The notes under the pieces: generated by a model
Databases searched by the model: none
The model's input: only the letters and a program-made list of their open reading frames with translations
Told to the model about the DNA's origin: nothing
Part shown: positions 54,978-64,000 of the stretch, in pieces
Layout: each line of letters starts with the position of its first letter
How positions within the stretch are numbered: the first letter of the stretch is position 1
NCBI RefSeq assembly: GCF_031456545.1
Contig: NZ_JAVDUV010000001.1
Span: 1,302,001 to 1,366,000, forward strand
DNA: 64,000 nucleotides
Direction of reading: 5' to 3'
Source: Agromyces sp. 3263
GTDB lineage: Bacteria; Actinomycetota; Actinomycetes; Actinomycetales; Microbacteriaceae
Position numbers and translations under genes: made by a program

Positions 54978-55928
54978 ATGACCGAATCGCCCCGGCTCCT
55001 CGTGACCGTGCCCGGCGCGACCCTGCGTCGCGCGCTCGAGCGGACTCCCGGCGGGGTGCCCGACGGCGTCGAGGTGCTGCAGTGGGACCTCGAGGGGCCG
55101 CCGCCCGTGGCATCCGGCCGTCGCATCGACCTCGTCGTGCCGCCGTACATGGGCGCGGCCGCCCGGCTCGGAGCGCTCGACGGCGTCGACGTGGGCCTCG
55201 TGCAGTCGCAGTCGATCGGCTACGACGACATCGCCGACGCGCTGCCGCCGGGCCACGTCTTCGCGAACGCGGCGACCGTGCACGAGACGTCCACGGCCGA
55301 GCTCACCCTGGCGCTGGTGCTCGCGGCGCAGCGCGGGATCCCCGACTTCGTCCGCGCCGCATCCGAGGGCCGGTGGGCGCCCGCCCGGCACGAGAGCCTC
55401 GCGGACCGGCGCGTGCTGCTCATCGGCTACGGCGGCGTCGGCCGCGCGATCGAGGAACGGCTCGCCCCCTTCGAGGTCGAGGTGACTCGGGTCGCCAGCC
55501 GCGCCCGCGACGACGAGCGCGGGCGCATCCACGGCATCGACGAGCTGCCGCAGCTCCTGCCCGACGCCGAGATCGTGATCGTCGGCGTGCCCCTCAGCGA
55601 TGCCACGACCGGGCTCGTCGACGCGGACTTCCTCGCGGCCCTGCCCGACGGCGCCCTCGTGGTGAACATCGCCCGCGGCAAGGTCGCCGACACCGACGCG
55701 CTCCTCGCCGAGGCCGGCACCGGCCGGCTCCGGTTCGCCCTCGACGTCACCGACCCCGAGCCGCTGCCGCAGGGGCATCCGCTCTTCGCGTTGCCGAACG
55801 TGCTGATCTCCCCGCACGTCGGGGGCGCGTCGACCGCGATGATGCCCCGCATGGCGCGGCTCCTCAAGCGCCAGATCGAGCGGATGTTGCGCGGCGAGGC
55901 GCCCGAGAACGTCGTGCTGCGCAGCTGA
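54978..55928 (+). CDS. D-isomer-specific 2-hydroxyacid dehydrogenase
   Basis: A 316-residue NAD(P)-dependent reductase of 2-keto acids to D-2-hydroxy acids. Rossmann motif GYGGVGRAIEER (about 145-156); catalytic Arg in VNIARGKVAD, Glu in DVTDPEPLP and His in ISPHVGGAS. GGAAGGA precedes the ATG at 54978 by 7 nt. The substrate is not resolvable; the neighbours (serine hydrolase, membrane protein) give no help. Confidence 0.92.
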   Translation: MTESPRLLVTVPGATLRRALERTPGGVPDGVEVLQWDLEGPPPVASGRRIDLVVPPYMGAAARLGALDGVDVGLVQSQSIGYDDIADALPPGHVFANAATVHETSTAELTLALVLAAQRGIPDFVRAASEGRWAPARHESLADRRVLLIGYGGVGRAIEERLAPFEVEVTRVASRARDDERGRIHGIDELPQLLPDAEIVIVGVPLSDATTGLVDADFLAALPDGALVVNIARGKVADTDALLAEAGTGRLRFALDVTDPEPLPQGHPLFALPNVLISPHVGGASTAMMPRMARLLKRQIERMLRGEAPENVVLRS

Positions 55929-55993: not shown

Positions 55994-56968
55994 ATGCCGA
56001 GCTTCGACCACGCCTTCGACTGGACCCGCCGCCACGTCGACGACGGTCCCATGCCCAGCGCCGTGCTCGGCATCGCCACCGCCGACGGCATCGTCGCCCT
56101 CGACGCGTTCGGCGGGGCATCCGTCGACGACCACTACGCCCTCTTCTCGATCACCAAGCCGCTCGTCGGGCTGGCCGCGCTGCGCCTCATCGAGGAGGGG
56201 CGGATGACACCCGACACCCCGCTCACGACGGCGGTGCCCGAGTTCGGCGACGGACGCGACGACATCGTGCGCCTGCGGCACCTCGTGAGCCACACCTCGG
56301 GCATCGTAGAGCCCGACTTGCAGACGCCCGCGGGCCTGCGCCCGTCGCTGCTCGCACCGGGTCGCGACTTCGCGGCCGGCACCGCGTCGCGGTACTCCAC
56401 GATCGCCTTCGAGGGCATCGCCGCGCTCATCGAGCACGCGGGAGGCGCCTCCTGGGAGCAGGCGGTCGACGCCGTCGCCGCCCGGGCCGGTGCGAGCGGG
56501 TTCACGACGGATGCCGCGGCGAGCCCGCACGAGGTCGTCGACGCGGCTGCGCAGGGCCTCGACTACCCCGCATTCGCCGCACTCCGGCATCCGGGAGCCG
56601 GTCTGCTGGGCCGGGCGAAGGACCTGCTCGCCATCGGCAGCGCACTGCTGCGCAACGACGGGTCGCTCGTGTCGAAGGCGGGCTACGACGCCATGCTGCG
56701 CCCGCTCACGGCCGGGCTCCCGAAGCTCGAGCCGTACCCCGAGTCGCGCGGCCAGGACTGGGGCTTCACGTGGAACCTGCGGCACTCGGCGGCGGGGCTG
56801 CTCGCCGCCGACACGTTCAGCCACGGCGCCTGGGCGGGCAGCGAGTTCGCCGTCACGCCGTCGCGCGGGGTGTGCTTCGTGCTGCTCACGAGCGTGGGCG
56901 GCGGCATCGGCCGGTTCGGCGTGAACATCGACGAGCTGCACAACGCGGTCGCCGCGGCCGTCGACTGA
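55994..56968 (+). CDS. Beta-lactamase-family serine hydrolase
   Basis: A 324-residue protein of the class C beta-lactamase/DD-peptidase fold. Ser52-x2-Lys55 (FSITKPLV) is the nucleophile motif, Tyr134 in RYSTIAFEG the second, and HGAWAGSEFAV near the C-terminus the KTG-like HxG site. No signal peptide, so it is probably cytoplasmic and more likely an esterase or amidase than a penicillin-binding protein. GAGAGGA precedes the ATG by 6-7 nt. It is close to the end of the metabolic region and on the same strand as the dehydrogenase. Confidence 0.88.
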   Translation: MPSFDHAFDWTRRHVDDGPMPSAVLGIATADGIVALDAFGGASVDDHYALFSITKPLVGLAALRLIEEGRMTPDTPLTTAVPEFGDGRDDIVRLRHLVSHTSGIVEPDLQTPAGLRPSLLAPGRDFAAGTASRYSTIAFEGIAALIEHAGGASWEQAVDAVAARAGASGFTTDAAASPHEVVDAAAQGLDYPAFAALRHPGAGLLGRAKDLLAIGSALLRNDGSLVSKAGYDAMLRPLTAGLPKLEPYPESRGQDWGFTWNLRHSAAGLLAADTFSHGAWAGSEFAVTPSRGVCFVLLTSVGGGIGRFGVNIDELHNAVAAAVD

Positions 56969-57133: not shown

Positions 57134-58867
57134 ATGGACGCGGTGATGGAGTTGGAGATCGGGCCGGGTCCCGACCCGGGCTCGTTCGTGGTGCGCGTGC
57201 TCCAGTCGGTCGGCGGCGGGGAGCCGAGTGAGACCTTCAGGCTCGATCTCGACGACCTGTTGCGCCGCCGGCCCGAGCTCGAGGCGAATGTCCTGCTGTC
57301 CTCGATCGCCGCACGCCGGGTGATGTCGGACTCCGAGGCCTCCATCCAGGAGGTGGGACGGCGACTGTTCGAGTCCGCGTTCACCGGGAGTGTCGCGAGC
57401 GCCTACCGCACGAGCATGGCCGTCGCGGCCGAGCGCGGTGACAGCGTGCAGATCGCCCTGCGGCTCACCGCCCCTGGACTGGCCGCCCTGCCGTGGGAGG
57501 CACTGTACGACCCGGAGACCGAGCGATACCTCTGTCGCAAGGATCCGCTCGTCCGCAACGTGCCGGCTCCCGCTTCCCCGCGGCTCCAGATCACGGCCCC
57601 GCTGCGGGTGCTCGGCATGATCGCGTCACCGCGCGGGCTGCCGACACTCGACGTCGAGCTCGAGCGCGATCGCCTCGAGGAAGCCCTGAAACCGCATATC
57701 GACGACCGGCGGGTCGAGCTGCACTGGCTGGAGGACGTGTCGTGGGAGGGGCTCCATGGGAAGCTTCTCGAGCGTGAGTGGCACGTGCTGCACTTCATCG
57801 GCCACGGGACCTACGACACCGACACCGACGAGGGGGTGCTGGCGTTCGTCGGACCGGGTGGGCGCGCCGACTACGTCACCGCGTCGGCCCTCGCCGACCT
57901 GCTCGACGAGGCCGAGCCCACGCCACGCCTCGTGGTCCTGAACTCCTGCCAGTCGGGGGCGGCCGGGGCGACGGACCTGTTCTCGGGCACTGCCGCGGCG
58001 CTCGCGCACAGCGGCATCCGCGCGGTCGCCGCGATGCAGTTCTCGATCAGCGACGCGGCCGCGCTCGCGTTCGCCCGCGGGTTCTATGCGGCGCTCACCA
58101 ACGGGCGGGGCATCGACGAGGCCGTGCGGAGCGGTCGCATCGGCATCCTCGGCCTCGGGCGGGGCACGCTCGAGTGGGTCACGCCGGTGCTGTACCTGCG
58201 CGGCGACGCTCGCCTGTTCGACATGGTGCCGCTGAAGTGGGATCCGAAACCGAAGCCGCCGCTGCCCGGGCACCGACGCCGCGAGAACTGGGTGCCGGTC
58301 CCCGGACAGGGAGCAGCGGACCCGCAGAGCGCGCCGCAGTCTGGGCCGACGCCGACGCGATCCTCGAAGCGGGTGTGGTGGTGGGTGATCGCGGCGGTGA
58401 TCGCCGCACTCGTCATCACGGCCGCCGTCGTGATCGCCATGCGCCCGGAGCTGATCGGCATCGGCGGGGGCGACGACCCAGGCGGCTCGGGCGATGGCGG
58501 CTCGGCGAGCACCGCAGAGCTCGTCGTGCCGCTCAACGGAGATTGGGTCGAGGCCGGGCTCTACTGCCTCCTGGGCGACGAGTTCGTGATCGAGGTGACC
58601 GGGCGGGGCTGGCTCGACGCTGCGCAGGAATCGGAGATCGGGCCCGACGGCCTGACGAACGGCGAGCACCCCGAGGAGCGCGTGCTGGCCGACGCGAACA
58701 CGGGATCGGTCATCGGCCGGCTCGACACCACCCCCGAGATCTTCCCGGTCGGAACGGGCACGACCTACGTGTGTCCGGCACAGGGGGACCTGCAGCTCGG
58801 CATCAACGACACCGATCTCGCGGACAACAGCGGCGAGTTCGGGGCATCCGTCACGCTCAACCAATAG
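57134..58867 (+). CDS. CHAT protease - membrane helix - LecA-like lectin domain, copy 1
   Basis: A 577-residue protein. Residues 1-365 form an N-terminal region and a CHAT (caspase HetF-associated with TPRs) peptidase domain: LPWEALYDPE opening, His224 in HFIGHG and Cys272 in NSCQSG as the expected dyad. A Pro-rich basic linker (370-413), one membrane helix (414-436) and an ectodomain (about 462-577) follow; positive residues before the helix predict N-in/C-out. The ectodomain resembles Pseudomonas LecA/PA-IL: GPDGLTNGEHPEE, then GINDTDLADNSGEF, with Cys478 and Cys547. The start at 57134 is chosen because MELEIGPG is shared by all three paralogues; no clear ribosome-binding site. 20 bp before the Trypco1-like gene, so likely an operon. 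Substrate unknown. Confidence 0.85.
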   Translation: MDAVMELEIGPGPDPGSFVVRVLQSVGGGEPSETFRLDLDDLLRRRPELEANVLLSSIAARRVMSDSEASIQEVGRRLFESAFTGSVASAYRTSMAVAAERGDSVQIALRLTAPGLAALPWEALYDPETERYLCRKDPLVRNVPAPASPRLQITAPLRVLGMIASPRGLPTLDVELERDRLEEALKPHIDDRRVELHWLEDVSWEGLHGKLLEREWHVLHFIGHGTYDTDTDEGVLAFVGPGGRADYVTASALADLLDEAEPTPRLVVLNSCQSGAAGATDLFSGTAAALAHSGIRAVAAMQFSISDAAALAFARGFYAALTNGRGIDEAVRSGRIGILGLGRGTLEWVTPVLYLRGDARLFDMVPLKWDPKPKPPLPGHRRRENWVPVPGQGAADPQSAPQSGPTPTRSSKRVWWWVIAAVIAALVITAAVVIAMRPELIGIGGGDDPGGSGDGGSASTAELVVPLNGDWVEAGLYCLLGDEFVIEVTGRGWLDAAQESEIGPDGLTNGEHPEERVLADANTGSVIGRLDTTPEIFPVGTGTTYVCPAQGDLQLGINDTDLADNSGEFGASVTLNQ

Positions 58868-58887
58868 CCAGACATCCGGAGGCGGCC

Positions 58888-59277
58888 ATGCAGCGCATCG
58901 CGATCTTCACGACCGACGACGGCGGCGAGGTCGCCATCCAGGTCGCCGACGAGACCCCGCCGGGGCAGACCGAGGGCGCCGCCGGGGCCTCGCAGGACGT
59001 GACGTTCCGGGGGATCCCTGAGGGAAGGATGTCCAGCCGCGGCATCCCGGACCGCCTCGTCGAGCGCACGCAGCAGAGCCTCGACGAGGTGCTCGCCCGC
59101 GCCCGACCCGCGGTCACCTCGCTGGTGCGGCAGATGCGGGGGCAGGAAGACGCCCCCGATGAACTCGAGGTGGAGTTCGGCATCCAGGTCAGCCTCGAGG
59201 TGGGCGCCTACGTCGCCGCGGCGAGCTCCGCTGCGAACTTCCGCGTGACGATGCGGTGGCGCTCCCGTGAGCCGTGA
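58888..59277 (+). CDS. Trypco1-like (CU044_2847) small protein
   Basis: A 129-residue protein. The C-terminal block LEVEFGIQVSLEVGAYVAA plus NFRVTMRW is the signature I associate with the trypsin-co-occurring domain 1 family, often encoded beside proteases and NTPases of actinobacterial conflict-type systems. The N-terminus reads MQRIAIFTTDDGGEVAIQVAD; a helix of about 25 residues precedes the signature. The GGAGG ribosome-binding site is 7 nt upstream. Embedded between two CHAT genes with 20- and 84-bp gaps, it may be a partner or regulator of those proteases; this is inference from context. Confidence 0.75.
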   Translation: MQRIAIFTTDDGGEVAIQVADETPPGQTEGAAGASQDVTFRGIPEGRMSSRGIPDRLVERTQQSLDEVLARARPAVTSLVRQMRGQEDAPDELEVEFGIQVSLEVGAYVAAASSAANFRVTMRWRSREP

Positions 59278-59361
59278 TGCCGCGCCATCCGGAATCGCAC
59301 CGAGCCGGCCGCCAGTGCCTGCACGGTTGCCGTCGCGGCACTGTGCGACGAGGATTCGCGC

Positions 59362-61320
59362 ATGGACACGGTGATGGAGTTGGAGATCGGGCCCGGCCCT
59401 GAGCCAGGCTCCTACGTGGTGCGGGTGCTGCAGTCGGTGGGCGGCGGTCAGCCGACCCAGGCGATGACCCTCGACCTCGCCCCGCTCGTCGACCAGCGAC
59501 CCCTGCTCGAGGCCAGCGTGCTCTCGTCTTCGGTCTCCGCGCGACGGGTGATGTCGGACACCGAGACGACGGTGCAGGAGGTCGGCCGCAGCCTGTTCGA
59601 CGCGGCCTTCCACGGCGACGTGCTCGCCGCCTATCGCACGAGCCTCGCGGTCGCCTCGGAACGCGGAACCAGCGTGCAGATCGCGTTGCGCCTGACGGCG
59701 CCCGAACTTTCGTCGCTGCCGTGGGAGACGCTCTTCGACGCCGACACGGGCGCCTACCTCTGCCGCAAGGAACCGCTCGTGCGGCGCGTGCCGGCCGCGT
59801 TCACGCCGCCCGTGCTCGCCATCGAGCCCCCCATGCGGATCCTCGGCATGATCGCGTCGCCGCGCGGGCTCCCGGCGCTCGACGTGGGCGGCGAGCGCGA
59901 GCGTCTCGAGGAGGCACTGCGCCCGCATCTCGACTCGGGCCGCGTGGAGCTCGAATGGCTCGACGACGTGTCGTGGGACGGCGTGCACGCCAAGCTCCTC
60001 GAGAAGGAATGGCACGTCCTGCACTTCATCGGCCACGGCTCGTACGACGCCGAGACCGACGAGGGCGTGCTCGCGTTCGTCGGCCGCGACGGCCGCGCCG
60101 ACGAGGTGACGGCGTCGAGCCTCGCCGACCTGCTCGACGAGGCGGAGCCCACGCCGCGGCTCGTCATGCTCAACTCGTGCCAGTCCGCGGCATCCGGCAC
60201 CACCGATCTCTTCTCGGGCACCGCAGCGGCCCTCGCGCACAGCGGCATCCGCGCGGTCGCGGCGATGCAGTTCTCGATCAGCGACGTGGCCGCCATCGCG
60301 TTCGCGCGCGGCTTCTACACGGCGCTCTCGTACGGACGCGGCATCGACGAGGCCGTGCGCAGCGGACGCATCGGCATCCTCGGCATCGGCCGCGGCACGC
60401 TCGAGTGGGTGACCCCCGTGCTCTACCTGCGCGGCGAGGACACGCGGCTGTTCGACGTGGCGCCGATGCCTGAGCCGGCGGCGGCGAAGCCCGCGTCGGC
60501 CACGCCATCACGGTCGGCGACTCCCGGTCCCGCGATCCCGGCGGCCTCTCCCGCAGCGCCGGCCGCACCGGCCGCATTCTCCGCACCCGCCACCCCGGCG
60601 ACGCCGGTCGTCATGGCGCAGGCCCTTCCGGTGACGGATGCCACGCCCGCCGCCCCGGCCGCGAGCTTCACGTCCCCGGCGGCCACGAGCGTGCCGCCGA
60701 CCTCGCCACCGCCGCCGGGGCGCACGCCCGGGACGCCGACGACTCCCCCGACGTCCCCGCCTTCCCCGACTCCTCCCGAGCGGAGGCGAGGCAGCGCGAA
60801 GCCGTGGCTGATCGTCGGAGCGATCGCGGTGGTCGCCATCGGCGCAGCCATCGGGGGCTACGGGCTCCTCCGCCCCGATGACGGCGGTACGACGGATAAC
60901 GCCGACGACCAGTCCGTCGTCGACGACGGCTTCGTCGACGACGAGCCCGGCGAGCCGCTGACGGTCGACCTCAACGTGCCGATGTACGCCGACTGGACCG
61001 ACACCGGCCTCTGGTGCGAGCCCGGTGAGGTGTTCGAGATCACGGTGACGGGCACGGCGTGGCACGACGCGAGCGCCGAGTCCCTCGTCGGCCCCGACGG
61101 CCTCACGGGTGGCGAGGTGCCCGAGGCACGGGTGTACGCCGACGCGAACACCGCCTCGGTGATCGGCGGATTCGACACCATCCCCGAGATGTTCGCGGTC
61201 GGGTCGGGCACCACCTACACCTGCCATGCCGGCGGCCAGCTCTACCTCGGCATCAACGACACCAACCTCGACGGCAACAGCGGCGAGTTCCAGGCGACCG
61301 TCACCCTCTGGGAGGGCTGA
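59362..61320 (+). CDS. CHAT protease - membrane helix - LecA-like lectin domain, copy 2
   Basis: A 652-residue paralogue of the first. CHAT domain about 1-366 with His225 in HFIGHG and Cys273 in NSCQSA. The linker (368-478) is about 110 residues of Pro/Ala/Thr/Ser, much longer than in the other copies; it ends in ERRRGSAK before the membrane helix (481-502). The ectodomain (about 535-652) carries GPDGLTGGEVPEA and GINDTNLDGNSGEF; the LecA-equivalent His in GEHP is Val here. The conserved Cys pair is Cys552 and Cys621. GAGGA lies 8-9 nt upstream of the ATG. Confidence 0.86.
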   Translation: MDTVMELEIGPGPEPGSYVVRVLQSVGGGQPTQAMTLDLAPLVDQRPLLEASVLSSSVSARRVMSDTETTVQEVGRSLFDAAFHGDVLAAYRTSLAVASERGTSVQIALRLTAPELSSLPWETLFDADTGAYLCRKEPLVRRVPAAFTPPVLAIEPPMRILGMIASPRGLPALDVGGERERLEEALRPHLDSGRVELEWLDDVSWDGVHAKLLEKEWHVLHFIGHGSYDAETDEGVLAFVGRDGRADEVTASSLADLLDEAEPTPRLVMLNSCQSAASGTTDLFSGTAAALAHSGIRAVAAMQFSISDVAAIAFARGFYTALSYGRGIDEAVRSGRIGILGIGRGTLEWVTPVLYLRGEDTRLFDVAPMPEPAAAKPASATPSRSATPGPAIPAASPAAPAAPAAFSAPATPATPVVMAQALPVTDATPAAPAASFTSPAATSVPPTSPPPPGRTPGTPTTPPTSPPSPTPPERRRGSAKPWLIVGAIAVVAIGAAIGGYGLLRPDDGGTTDNADDQSVVDDGFVDDEPGEPLTVDLNVPMYADWTDTGLWCEPGEVFEITVTGTAWHDASAESLVGPDGLTGGEVPEARVYADANTASVIGGFDTIPEMFAVGSGTTYTCHAGGQLYLGINDTNLDGNSGEFQATVTLWEG

Positions 61321-61375
61321 CCGGGGTGGTCGCTCCCGGAAGCATCCACAACCCCGCACCGTCGAGGTGAGTTCC

Positions 61376-63016
61376 ATGGACACGGCGATGGAACTGGAGA
61401 TCGGGCCGGGACCGGAGCCCGGCACCTACGTCGTTCGCGTCCTCCGGTCCGTCGGCGGTGGCGAGCCGGTCGAGACGATCACGCTCGACGTCGACGAGCT
61501 CGTCTCGCAGCGGCCGCACGTCGAGGCGAGCATCCTGTCGTCCTCCGTCTCGAGCCGCCGCATCATGTCCGACACGGAGGCCGAGGTCCAGGCCGTGGGC
61601 ATCCGACTGTTCGAGACCACGTTCACCGGCGACGTCCGCACCGCGTACCGGACGAGCGCTGCCGTGGCCGCCGAGCGGGGCACGGGCGTGCAGCTCGTCC
61701 TGCGGCTGGACGCGCCGGGCCTGGCCGCGCTGCCGTGGGAGGCGCTGTTCGATTCGGAGACGCAGGCGTACCTCTGCCTCAAGGAACCGCTGGTGCGTCA
61801 TGTGCCCGCGTCGTTCTCGCCGCCCGCGTTGACGGTCACCCCGCCGCTCAAGGTCCTCGGGATGATCTCGTCGCCGGCCGGCCTGCCCGCGCTCGACGTC
61901 GAAGCGGAGCGCGTCCGGCTCGAGGAGGCGCTCCGCCCGCACCTCGACGCGGGGCGGGTGGAGCTGCGCTGGCTCGACGACGTCAGCTGGACGGGGGTGC
62001 ACGACAAGCTCCTCGAAGACGAATGGCACGTGCTGCACTTCATCGGGCACGGCGGATACGACACCGAGACCGACGAGGGCGTGCTCGCGTTCGTCGGACG
62101 CAATGGTCGCGCGGACTACATCCCCGCCTCGAGGCTCGCCGACCTCCTCGACGAGGCCGAGCCGACACCGCGACTGGTCGTGCTGAACTCGTGCCAGTCC
62201 GGGGCATCCGGCACCATCGACCTCTTCTCCGGCACGGCGGCGGCGCTCGCGCACAGCGGCATCCACGCGGTCGCCGCGATGCAGTACTCGATCAGCGATG
62301 ACGCCGCGATCGCGTTCGCGCGTGGCTTCTACAAGGCGCTCGCGCACGGACGCGGCATCGACGAGGCTGTCCGCAGCGGGCGCATCGGCATCCTCGGCCT
62401 GAGTCGCGGCACGCTGGAATGGATCACGCCCGTGCTGTACCTGCGCGGTGAGGACACCCGACTCTTCGACATCGCGCCGTCGCCCGAAGTTCAGGTCGCG
62501 CCCGCCCGGCCGATGCGCTGGAATGCATGGCTCGTCGCGGCGACGATCGGGATCGTCGCGATCGGGGGCGGCGGCGTCGCCGCCGCACTGCTGCTGCGGC
62601 CCGACAACGGCGCGCCTCCAGATGGCAACGGCGGAGGCAACGGCGGCCAGCCCGTGATGACAGAAGTCACGGTCGAGGTCGACCAGCCCTGGACGGACAC
62701 GGGCATCTCGTGCGAGGCCGGCGATACGTTCAACATCCGGGCGAGCGGGCAGGCCTGGTTCGAGACGGAGAACACGAACTCGGGACCCGACGGGATGCTC
62801 TCGGGCGAGCACTCCGACTCGGCAGTCACCCTCTCGGTGCACCCATTGGCGCTCATCGGCAGCCTCGACACGGTGGACGAACTCTTCTCCGTGGGGTTGG
62901 CGACCACCTACGAGTGCCCGGTTGGCGGTCGGCTCTGGCTCGGCGTGAACGACAACACGCCCGAGGGCAACACGGGGAACTTCGCGGCGGCCGTCACGCA
63001 CCGACCGTCGGGGTGA
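61376..63016 (+). CDS. CHAT protease - membrane helix - LecA-like lectin domain, copy 3
   Basis: A 546-residue paralogue with the shortest linker. CHAT domain about 1-366 with His225 in HFIGHG and Cys273 in NSCQSG. The helix (385-407) follows after about 18 linker residues; a Gly/Asn-rich spacer leads to the ectodomain (about 428-546) with GPDGMLSGEHSDS and GVNDNTPEGNTGNF. Cys446 and Cys514 are the conserved pair. The ATG has GAGGTGA at the right spacing and lies 55 bp after copy 2. The ectodomain differs most in this copy, perhaps reflecting another ligand. Confidence 0.86.
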   Translation: MDTAMELEIGPGPEPGTYVVRVLRSVGGGEPVETITLDVDELVSQRPHVEASILSSSVSSRRIMSDTEAEVQAVGIRLFETTFTGDVRTAYRTSAAVAAERGTGVQLVLRLDAPGLAALPWEALFDSETQAYLCLKEPLVRHVPASFSPPALTVTPPLKVLGMISSPAGLPALDVEAERVRLEEALRPHLDAGRVELRWLDDVSWTGVHDKLLEDEWHVLHFIGHGGYDTETDEGVLAFVGRNGRADYIPASRLADLLDEAEPTPRLVVLNSCQSGASGTIDLFSGTAAALAHSGIHAVAAMQYSISDDAAIAFARGFYKALAHGRGIDEAVRSGRIGILGLSRGTLEWITPVLYLRGEDTRLFDIAPSPEVQVAPARPMRWNAWLVAATIGIVAIGGGGVAAALLLRPDNGAPPDGNGGGNGGQPVMTEVTVEVDQPWTDTGISCEAGDTFNIRASGQAWFETENTNSGPDGMLSGEHSDSAVTLSVHPLALIGSLDTVDELFSVGLATTYECPVGGRLWLGVNDNTPEGNTGNFAAAVTHRPSG

Positions 63017-63092: not shown

Positions 63093-64000
63093 ATGCCCAC
63101 CTCCGCAGAGCCCCGCGTGGCCCTCTACTTCGACTTCGACAACATCGTCATCTCGCGCTACGACCAGGTGCACGGCGAAGGCGCCTACCGCAAGGACACC
63201 TCGCGCGGGCGTGCGGTCAACCCGGGCACGCAGACCGCCGAACGCCTCGTCACGGCCACCGTCGACATCGACGCGGTGCTCGACTTCGCGGCGACGTTCG
63301 GCACCATCGCCATCGCCCGCGCCTACGCCGACTGGTCGACCCCCGTGAACGCGAGCTACCGCGGGCAGCTCATCGACCGTGCCGTCGACCTGGTGCAGCT
63401 GTTCCCCCTCTCGGCGACGAAGAACGGTGCCGACATCCGCCTCGCCGTCGACGCCGTCGAGGACATGTTCCGCATCGACGACCTCTCGCACATCGTCATC
63501 GTCGCGGGCGACTCCGACTACGTGGCGCTCGCGCAGAAGGCCAAGCGCCTCGGCCGCTACGTCGTCGGCATCGGCGTGGCCGGCGGCACGAGCCGGGCGC
63601 TCACCGCGTCGTGCGACGAGTACGCCGACTACGACGCCCTCCTGACCACGGATGCCGCGGTCGAGGAGGACGAGGAGGTCGCCGTCGCGGCACCGGCAGG
63701 CCGGGCGGCGGCGGCAGCAGCGCCGTCGGCCGCGGAGCCGGCCGCGGCAGCCGCGACCGCTCCGGCGGCATCCGCTCCCGAGGCCCCCAAGGCGCGTCGC
63801 GCCACCCGCGGCGGCGGCAGGGCCAAGGCGACGGATGCCGCGGCGCCCGCGCCTGCGGCCGACGCAGAGACCCCGACCGACGCCGACCTCGCGACCGCGG
63901 CCCCCGCGGGGCGTTCGGGCGGCGCCCCCGCCGTGCACTTCTCCGACGGCACGCAGCCCGAGCCGACGTCGGGAACCCGCAACCCCGGCCGCCTCATCCT
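63093..64000 (+). CDS. NYN-domain (PIN-like nuclease) protein, 3'-truncated
   Basis: The frame is open from the ATG at 63093 to the window end (302 codons visible). Residues about 8-190 form a NYN/LabA-type PIN-like domain: VALYFDFDNIVIS with the acidic residues, KNGADIRLAVDAVED and IVIVAGDSDYVALAQKAKRLGRYVVGIG. All conserved Asp positions expected for a metal-dependent nuclease are present. The tail (about 195-302) is Ala/Pro/Glu-rich; an OST-HTH/LOTUS domain could follow beyond the window. GGAAGG precedes the ATG and TAGCAT (63055-63060) may be its own -10 box, so it need not belong to the CHAT operon. Confidence 0.87.
   Translation, partial: MPTSAEPRVALYFDFDNIVISRYDQVHGEGAYRKDTSRGRAVNPGTQTAERLVTATVDIDAVLDFAATFGTIAIARAYADWSTPVNASYRGQLIDRAVDLVQLFPLSATKNGADIRLAVDAVEDMFRIDDLSHIVIVAGDSDYVALAQKAKRLGRYVVGIGVAGGTSRALTASCDEYADYDALLTTDAAVEEDEEVAVAAPAGRAAAAAAPSAAEPAAAAATAPAASAPEAPKARRATRGGGRAKATDAAAPAPAADAETPTDADLATAAPAGRSGGAPAVHFSDGTQPEPTSGTRNPGRLI

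Follow-up and report, generated by a model that had tools for sequence, protein, structure and literature searches.

The nearest published principle to the locus described here is System 4 of Kaur et al. (2020), an actinobacterial pairing of EACC1 with a caspase that, in the available passages of PMC7159879, joins an N-terminal caspase that stays constant to a variable C-terminus, in some cases a membrane helix with an outside domain, and adds a small partner gene. HetF, according to excerpts of PMC8406250, has a CHAT domain, a single membrane segment and tetratricopeptide repeats (TPR), and is located at midcell. Trypco1 proteins are described in passages of PMC7159879 as partners in VMAP/MoxR-vWA ternary systems with trypsin, and in part of PMC10907252 as Trypco1/2 adapters that accompany caspase-like effectors of other bacteria. 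Here we analyze a stretch of 64,000 nucleotides from Agromyces sp. 3263 (contig NZ_JAVDUV010000001.1, positions 1,302,001 to 1,366,000; the window), which contains a four-gene cluster. An earlier note on this DNA had proposed three tandem CHAT paralogues, each with an intact catalytic dyad, one membrane helix and a C-terminal domain, with a Trypco1 gene between copies 1 and 2, a layout confirmed here. The cluster is a CHAT–Trypco1 system with a LecA-fold, fast-evolving ectodomain, a variant on the published principle of a constant caspase with a variable C-terminus. It comprises the following features:

57134..58867, + strand, copy 1: CHAT at residues 1-366, linker, membrane helix at residues 412-436, LecA-fold ectodomain at residues 459-577
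57803..57805, + strand, codon of the putative catalytic His224 of copy 1 (HFIGHG), the same residue in 73/73 aligned sequences
57947..57949, + strand, codon of the putative catalytic Cys272 of copy 1 (NSCQS), the same residue in 73/73
58367..58441, + strand, membrane helix of copy 1, residues 412-436 in the model, hydropathy peak from residue 418, basic residues on the CHAT side
58508..58864, + strand, ectodomain of copy 1, LecA/PA-IL fold, blockwise predicted local distance difference test score (pLDDT) 94-98 from residue 461, Cys478 and Cys547 invariant
58888..59277, + strand, Trypco1 protein (PF19493) of 129 aa, Pfam 82.7 bits, NCBIfam NF041216 60.5 bits
59008..59013, + strand, R41-G42 of the Trypco1 linker (VTFRG), candidate cleavage or docking site in a segment of pLDDT <50
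59038..59043, + strand, second linker RG of Trypco1, R51-G52; at least two RG are found in 69/129 scored sequences
59362..61320, + strand, copy 2: CHAT, long Pro/Ala linker, membrane helix from residue 483, LecA-like ectodomain at residues ~531-652
61376..63016, + strand, copy 3: CHAT, membrane helix from residue 389, LecA-like ectodomain at residues ~426-546

The cluster shares with System 4 a constant caspase-superfamily domain, a variable C-terminus and a small partner gene, but falls outside it on two counts, EACC1 and the type of caspase. The System 4 partner is EACC1, which has a conserved membrane helix and is encoded 5', whereas here it is Trypco1, 3' of copy 1; no EACC1 gene with a membrane helix lies directly 5' of the cluster, where the gene encodes a beta-lactamase-fold hydrolase. 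The EACC1-associated caspase model scores 18–24 bits against the cluster copies, with a cut-off of 140, and the System 4 section of PMC7159879, as far as available, makes no mention of a LecA-like ectodomain. HetF resembles the copies in its CHAT domain and single membrane segment, but has TPR where they have a LecA-fold ectodomain, and its NCBIfam model reaches 59–64 bits of a cut-off of 1200. Unlike SAVED-CHAT (8tl0), the cluster proteins carry a membrane helix and an ectodomain instead of the SAVED sensor, for which Pfam lists no match at E<1 in the three copies, and unlike Craspase (Csx29/TPR-CHAT with Csx30) the cluster genes include no Cas gene or TPR according to Pfam. PADLOC returned only partial matches for the three copies (SAVED_CHAT at 68–74 bits, BovA and chat models) and none for Trypco1. 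LecA/PA-IL and PllA have the fold of the ectodomain, which differs from them in its shortened sugar loop, its variable sugar contacts and its fusion to a protease via a membrane helix. The VMAP ternary systems have a Trypco1 partner in common with the cluster, where the partner protease is CHAT instead; no VMAP gene directly adjoins the cluster among the five flanking genes scanned, no genome-wide MoxR/vWA/VMAP search having been made. One component of that published type, a VMAP-C protein with trypsin and EAD2 domains, was found elsewhere, directly behind a Trypco1 gene (L115, 6463–8682). DdvA (8rw5, 8rot) differs in being, going by its title, a transmembrane anti-sigma factor. Among the titles and abstract openings listed from the open-licence literature, none dealt with membrane CHAT proteases having PA-IL-like ectodomains or with Trypco1 as a CHAT partner in actinobacteria. 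The statement in the earlier note that no described system with this architecture was known to it is right in part only: the principle is already published for System 4 (PMC7159879), and a CHAT protein with a single membrane segment is described in HetF (PMC8406250).

All three copies match CHAT (PF12770) at 107.5–109.1 bits against a Pfam cut-off of 24, the dyad is present in each of them, and the predicted structure of copy 1, when compared with known folds, is caspase-like. Among the fetched loci of relatives, both dyad residues are retained in 75 of 79 rows (shorter readings of one gene were merged before counting), with four exceptions: L039, where Tyr replaces His, the distant L020, where Ser does, the fragment L082 and one split piece from L061. 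Both the fold and the retention of the dyad in most homologues had been anticipated in the earlier note. By profile and dyad, and for copy 1 also by predicted fold, the three copies would be CHAT peptidases with putative activity. A further residue, Asp307, located just past the strand that follows the active-Cys region, is identical in all 73 aligned sequences, is shared by 90% or more of a diverse set of 28 CHAT domains and aligns with an Asp of SAVED-CHAT; that it reads Arg would be a guess. Each copy has one membrane helix C-terminal of CHAT. Because basic residues precede this helix in copy 1 and the cysteine pair that follows it, Cys478 and Cys547, is invariant in the 73 sequences, we infer that CHAT is cytosolic and the ectodomain is outside.

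The ectodomain of copy 1 superimposes on LecA and PllA at 1.5–1.8 Å, with a LecA sequence E value of 0.0014 and ~25% identity. The Pfam PA-IL profile has no listed match at E<1 for any of the three copies. Equivalents of LecA Asp100 and of Asn108, the latter presumably a calcium ligand, are kept in 72/73 and 73/73 sequences, respectively. Galactose O6 is contacted in LecA by His50 and Gln53, the other galactose contacts being Asn107, which also binds calcium, Thr104 and Asp100 (passages of PMC9321714 and PMC12684298).

The protease and the ectodomain evolve at different rates. Mean pairwise identity over the 73 sequences is 79% for CHAT, 31% for the linker and helix, and 48% for the ectodomain. 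Ratios of non-synonymous to synonymous substitution rates (dN/dS), which are simple counting estimates uncorrected for recombination, were 0.20 for CHAT and 0.32 for the ectodomain of copy 1 relative to the A. ramosus counterpart, 0.16 and 0.88 for copy 2, and 0.09 and 0.67 for copy 3, the adjoining hydrolase and Trypco1 giving 0.24 and 0.33 in the same comparison. Against the close A. humi, with few ectodomain changes, the values were 0.08 and 0.34 for copy 1, and 0.12 and 0.24 for copy 3. Values of at least 1 came from two linker stretches only: the comparison of copies 1 and 2 gave 1.01, and a stretch of 18 codons at the end of a contig gave 2.19. In 28 pairs with CHAT domains at least 95% identical, ectodomain identity ranges from 48 to 97%; copy 3 of the window is 96% identical to P0070 in CHAT and 55% in the ectodomain, and 92% and 95% identical, respectively, to P0083. 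Since the two identities are discordant between such pairs, the histories of CHAT and ectodomain are, judged from these alignments, partly separate, with mixed pairings. For 68 sequences less than 95% identical, the 12 equivalents of the LecA ligand site, fixed beforehand, are somewhat more variable than the remaining ectodomain (mean entropy 1.95 vs 1.63). The equivalent of Gln53 is the most variable of the 119 ectodomain positions and that of His50 the third, with those of Asp100 and Asn108 almost fixed. This pattern, in which sugar-contact equivalents may diversify over a kept core, is a lead rather than a test, because both positions were picked after the ranking had been seen. In relatives outside the group, the C-termini on CHAT comprise WD40 (L043), NHL or lactonase/YNCE-type propellers (L040, L047, L048), weak TPR (L060), several hydrophobic helices (L049, L050, L059) and unmatched sequence (L031, L036, L056), a range that would fit a constant CHAT effector with interchangeable sensors. 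The surface-sensing array suggested in the earlier note is the best reading of the basic residues, the cysteine pair and an ectodomain that evolves faster than the protease, and the control of that protease by a carbohydrate stays a prediction.

The partner of the cluster was assigned to Trypco1 well above the Pfam cut-off of 24.6 bits, and it has no trypsin-like peptidase as a neighbour in the window, CHAT genes being found on both sides. The 60 genomes of the genus contain 11 Trypco1 copies in 10 genomes, and 10 of the 11 lie within 240 bases of a CHAT-family match, seven of them adjoining a strong CHAT; for three (those of G018 and G023, and one in G037) the adjoining match is weaker, at ~40% identity. 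The G044 copy lacks such a CHAT-family match. The 248 genomes of the order contain 16 copies in 13 genomes, six of them beside a CHAT match, one weak (G494). Trypco1 is found within two genes of CHAT in 21/60 loci (L021-L080) and, among the 50 loci with at least two genes on each side, in 17/32 at CHAT scores of at least 400 bits vs 0/13 below 300. In another locus (L121, 5619–10157), a 1512-codon frame directly behind Trypco1 contains trypsin-like, CHAT peptidase and ATPase domains, its first 1000 residues having been scanned. The linker between the N-terminal strands and the helix of Trypco1 is of variable length, and residues 21-53 and 55-62 of the window's protein have pLDDT <50. An Arg-Gly, mostly preceded by a hydrophobic residue or Thr (VTFRG, VVTRG, PVMRG), is present in this linker in 128/129 scored sequences and is conserved in a segment with little other conservation; the input was 141 sequences (116 homologues and 25 from the loci, near-copies and the window's own included), of which 12 were dropped for a missing anchor or N-terminus. 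Counted by context in a fixed window, with row L154 dropped, RG occurs in 27/29 proteins beside the CHAT family vs 8/36 elsewhere (Fisher p 7e-9), one of the eight (L119) in a strand. The two misses on the CHAT side are artefacts of the scripted window, L047_08 having VVTRG and L060_06 TVRG elsewhere in the linker. Six loci without this CHAT nearby (L129, L130, L132-L135) have a Trypco1 whose linker contains Arg at the corresponding position (LVARD, LVSRG). There is a hint that the linker Arg may predate the pairing with CHAT.

The reading that we put first, although its probability is somewhat short of even, is a receptor family whose members cross the membrane once, with a constant protease inside and a diversifying sensor outside, and in which a ligand-activated CHAT cuts Trypco1. 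A glycan or envelope polymer would meet the ectodomain and cluster or rearrange the receptor, activating CHAT, which would then cut the neighbouring Trypco1 after the Arg of the linker x-R-G. The cut would part the N-terminal strands from the C-terminal alpha-beta part, which would relay a signal or a death or dormancy response, and the tandem copies would bring several ligand specificities onto one Trypco1. A broader version, which we regard as unlikely, would make the cluster a bacterial counterpart of pattern-recognition and death receptors: a transmembrane caspase-like array with lectin-fold ectodomains that keep a calcium core, diversify where they read sugars and move from one protease backbone to another, every member cutting one shared Trypco1 at the x-R-G linker, so that Trypco1, named so far for its company only, would be a substrate or pseudosubstrate of Arg-reading proteases.

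Several findings weigh against the ligand-activated cutting of Trypco1. Trypco1 is within two genes of CHAT in 18/50 loci with at least two genes on each side, it is missing from two of the nine strong-CHAT genomes of the genus (G032, G055), and away from CHAT it has other partners, namely VMAP-C with trypsin (L115), NACHT with a phosphoesterase (L116) and a trypsin–CHAT fusion (L121). The motif also occurs in those 8/36 Trypco1 proteins away from strong CHAT, and much of its enrichment would be due to shared descent: in a tree of the remaining Trypco1 domain, the CHAT-associated proteins need three label changes only, and because this kinship explains much, the Fisher p overstates the link. 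Csx30 is cut at residues 427–429, outside the interdomain linker and with no essential residue, and therefore a CHAT protease need not be specific for Arg or cut within a linker. In all comparisons both CHAT and the ectodomain have a dN/dS under 1, which leaves positive selection unproven. The sugar loop is shorter than that of LecA, Thr104 being without counterpart, and at the position of Asn107 37 of the 73 sequences have G, 33 have D and 3 have N, on account of which galactose binding by the ectodomain is not predicted. Finally, the ten site genes scanned in sister species are metabolic or regulatory and none is a defence gene.

Trypco1 might, with a low probability, stay uncut: as an adaptor or pseudosubstrate inhibitor, it would block the CHAT active site with its x-R-G linker until the ectodomain is engaged. 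The motif retained in an otherwise variable, low-confidence linker would suit such a role, as would the term adapter domain given to Trypco1 in part of PMC10907252, but the protease would be uninhibited in the two genus genomes that have a strong CHAT without Trypco1, and the observations would suit cutting and blocking alike. Improbable to a similar degree is a HetF-like envelope or division sensor, whose ectodomain would bind the cell's own wall polysaccharide and whose CHAT would regulate growth or division with no role in defence. HetF, a midcell CHAT protein with one membrane segment in the excerpts of PMC8406250, is the top NCBIfam match by score, and the fixed chromosomal site with metabolic neighbours agrees with this, but the patchy distribution (strong match in 9/60 genus genomes), the variable copy number with decayed pieces in one genome and the quick divergence of the ectodomain among close relatives argue against it. 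Abortive-infection defence, with an ectodomain detecting phage adsorption or depolymerase action, is quite improbable: patchiness, tandem copies, a fast-evolving outside domain and the partial SAVED_CHAT match speak for it, but the ten site genes of the sister species are not defence genes and PADLOC gave nothing beyond those partial matches.

As for the layout, the four genes are on the + strand with gaps of 20, 84 and 55 bases in gene order, which makes a single transcript plausible. The genes around them lie outside the system, the last one probably:

54978..55928, + strand, 2-hydroxyacid dehydrogenase, conserved backbone of the site
55994..56968, + strand, beta-lactamase-fold serine hydrolase, conserved backbone of the site
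63093..64000, + strand, NYN-domain gene, continuing past the window end, present at empty sites too

The five flanking genes scanned with Pfam are metabolic or NYN. The genome (4.07 Mb, 3 contigs) has five CHAT matches, three in the cluster, one at C1:2009168 and a weaker one at C2:1089202. At ~2008-2010 kb of C1 (L007, 8577–10697) a 706 aa CHAT protein has one membrane helix and two LecA-like ectodomain profile matches; it has no adjoining Trypco1, and close relatives are found in A. ramosus (L038) and A. humi (L037).

Within the genus, 15 of the 60 genomes have a CHAT match at E<=0.001, nine of them strong (>500 bits). At least 16 of 299 sampled genomes of the family (best four candidates or fewer scored per genome) and at least 28 of 248 of the order (best eight or fewer) have a match, mostly weak in both cases. 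A scan of genome contigs gave 62 loci, mostly from actinobacteria with a few from other phyla, in hosts including Agromyces, Microbacterium, Humibacillus, Terrabacter, Mycobacterium, Nocardia and Streptomyces. The conserved neighbourhood expected in related genomes was found: a further seven genomes with a strong CHAT were read (L098, L102, L104, L106-L109), and in them the same site holds one to four CHAT copies, flanked by the 2-hydroxyacid dehydrogenase, hydrolase and NYN genes where present. Further family members lie away from the site in the window's genome, G031, G037 and G045. Fifteen genomes were read of the 34 with the hydrolase gene and no strong CHAT match. In four of them (L083, L086, L088, L091; own gene calls) the hydrolase directly adjoins NYN with nothing between, and in the other 11 the site contains different genes or the stretch lacks NYN. 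Genes for a 258 aa regulator of IclR type and a DJ-1/PfpI protein of 196–199 aa occupy the site in six species (L085, L087, L089, L094, L104, L107), the pairs being 82–95% identical to that of L085, from which the families were assigned; L092 has the regulator only. Copies are gained and lost: in Agromyces sp. Soil535 (L104, 7293–8743, reverse strand), a further CHAT copy, decayed into several frames, lies behind an intact CHAT–Trypco1 pair. In a CHAT-domain tree of 50 sequences, copies 1, 2 and 3 fall into three groups, with support of 86/93, 88/94 and 100/100, respectively, the first two being below the bootstrap level of 95 usually asked. The three copies are probably older than these species, because each groups with copies of other species.

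If the preferred reading of a ligand-activated receptor protease is true, the cluster would provide bacteria with a direct link from an outside ligand to an inside caspase-like protease through a diversifying receptor part. Several hosts have culture-collection numbers, so the strains are obtainable, and two questions become testable: the role of Trypco1 proteins, and the targets of CHAT proteases outside CRISPR and SAVED systems.

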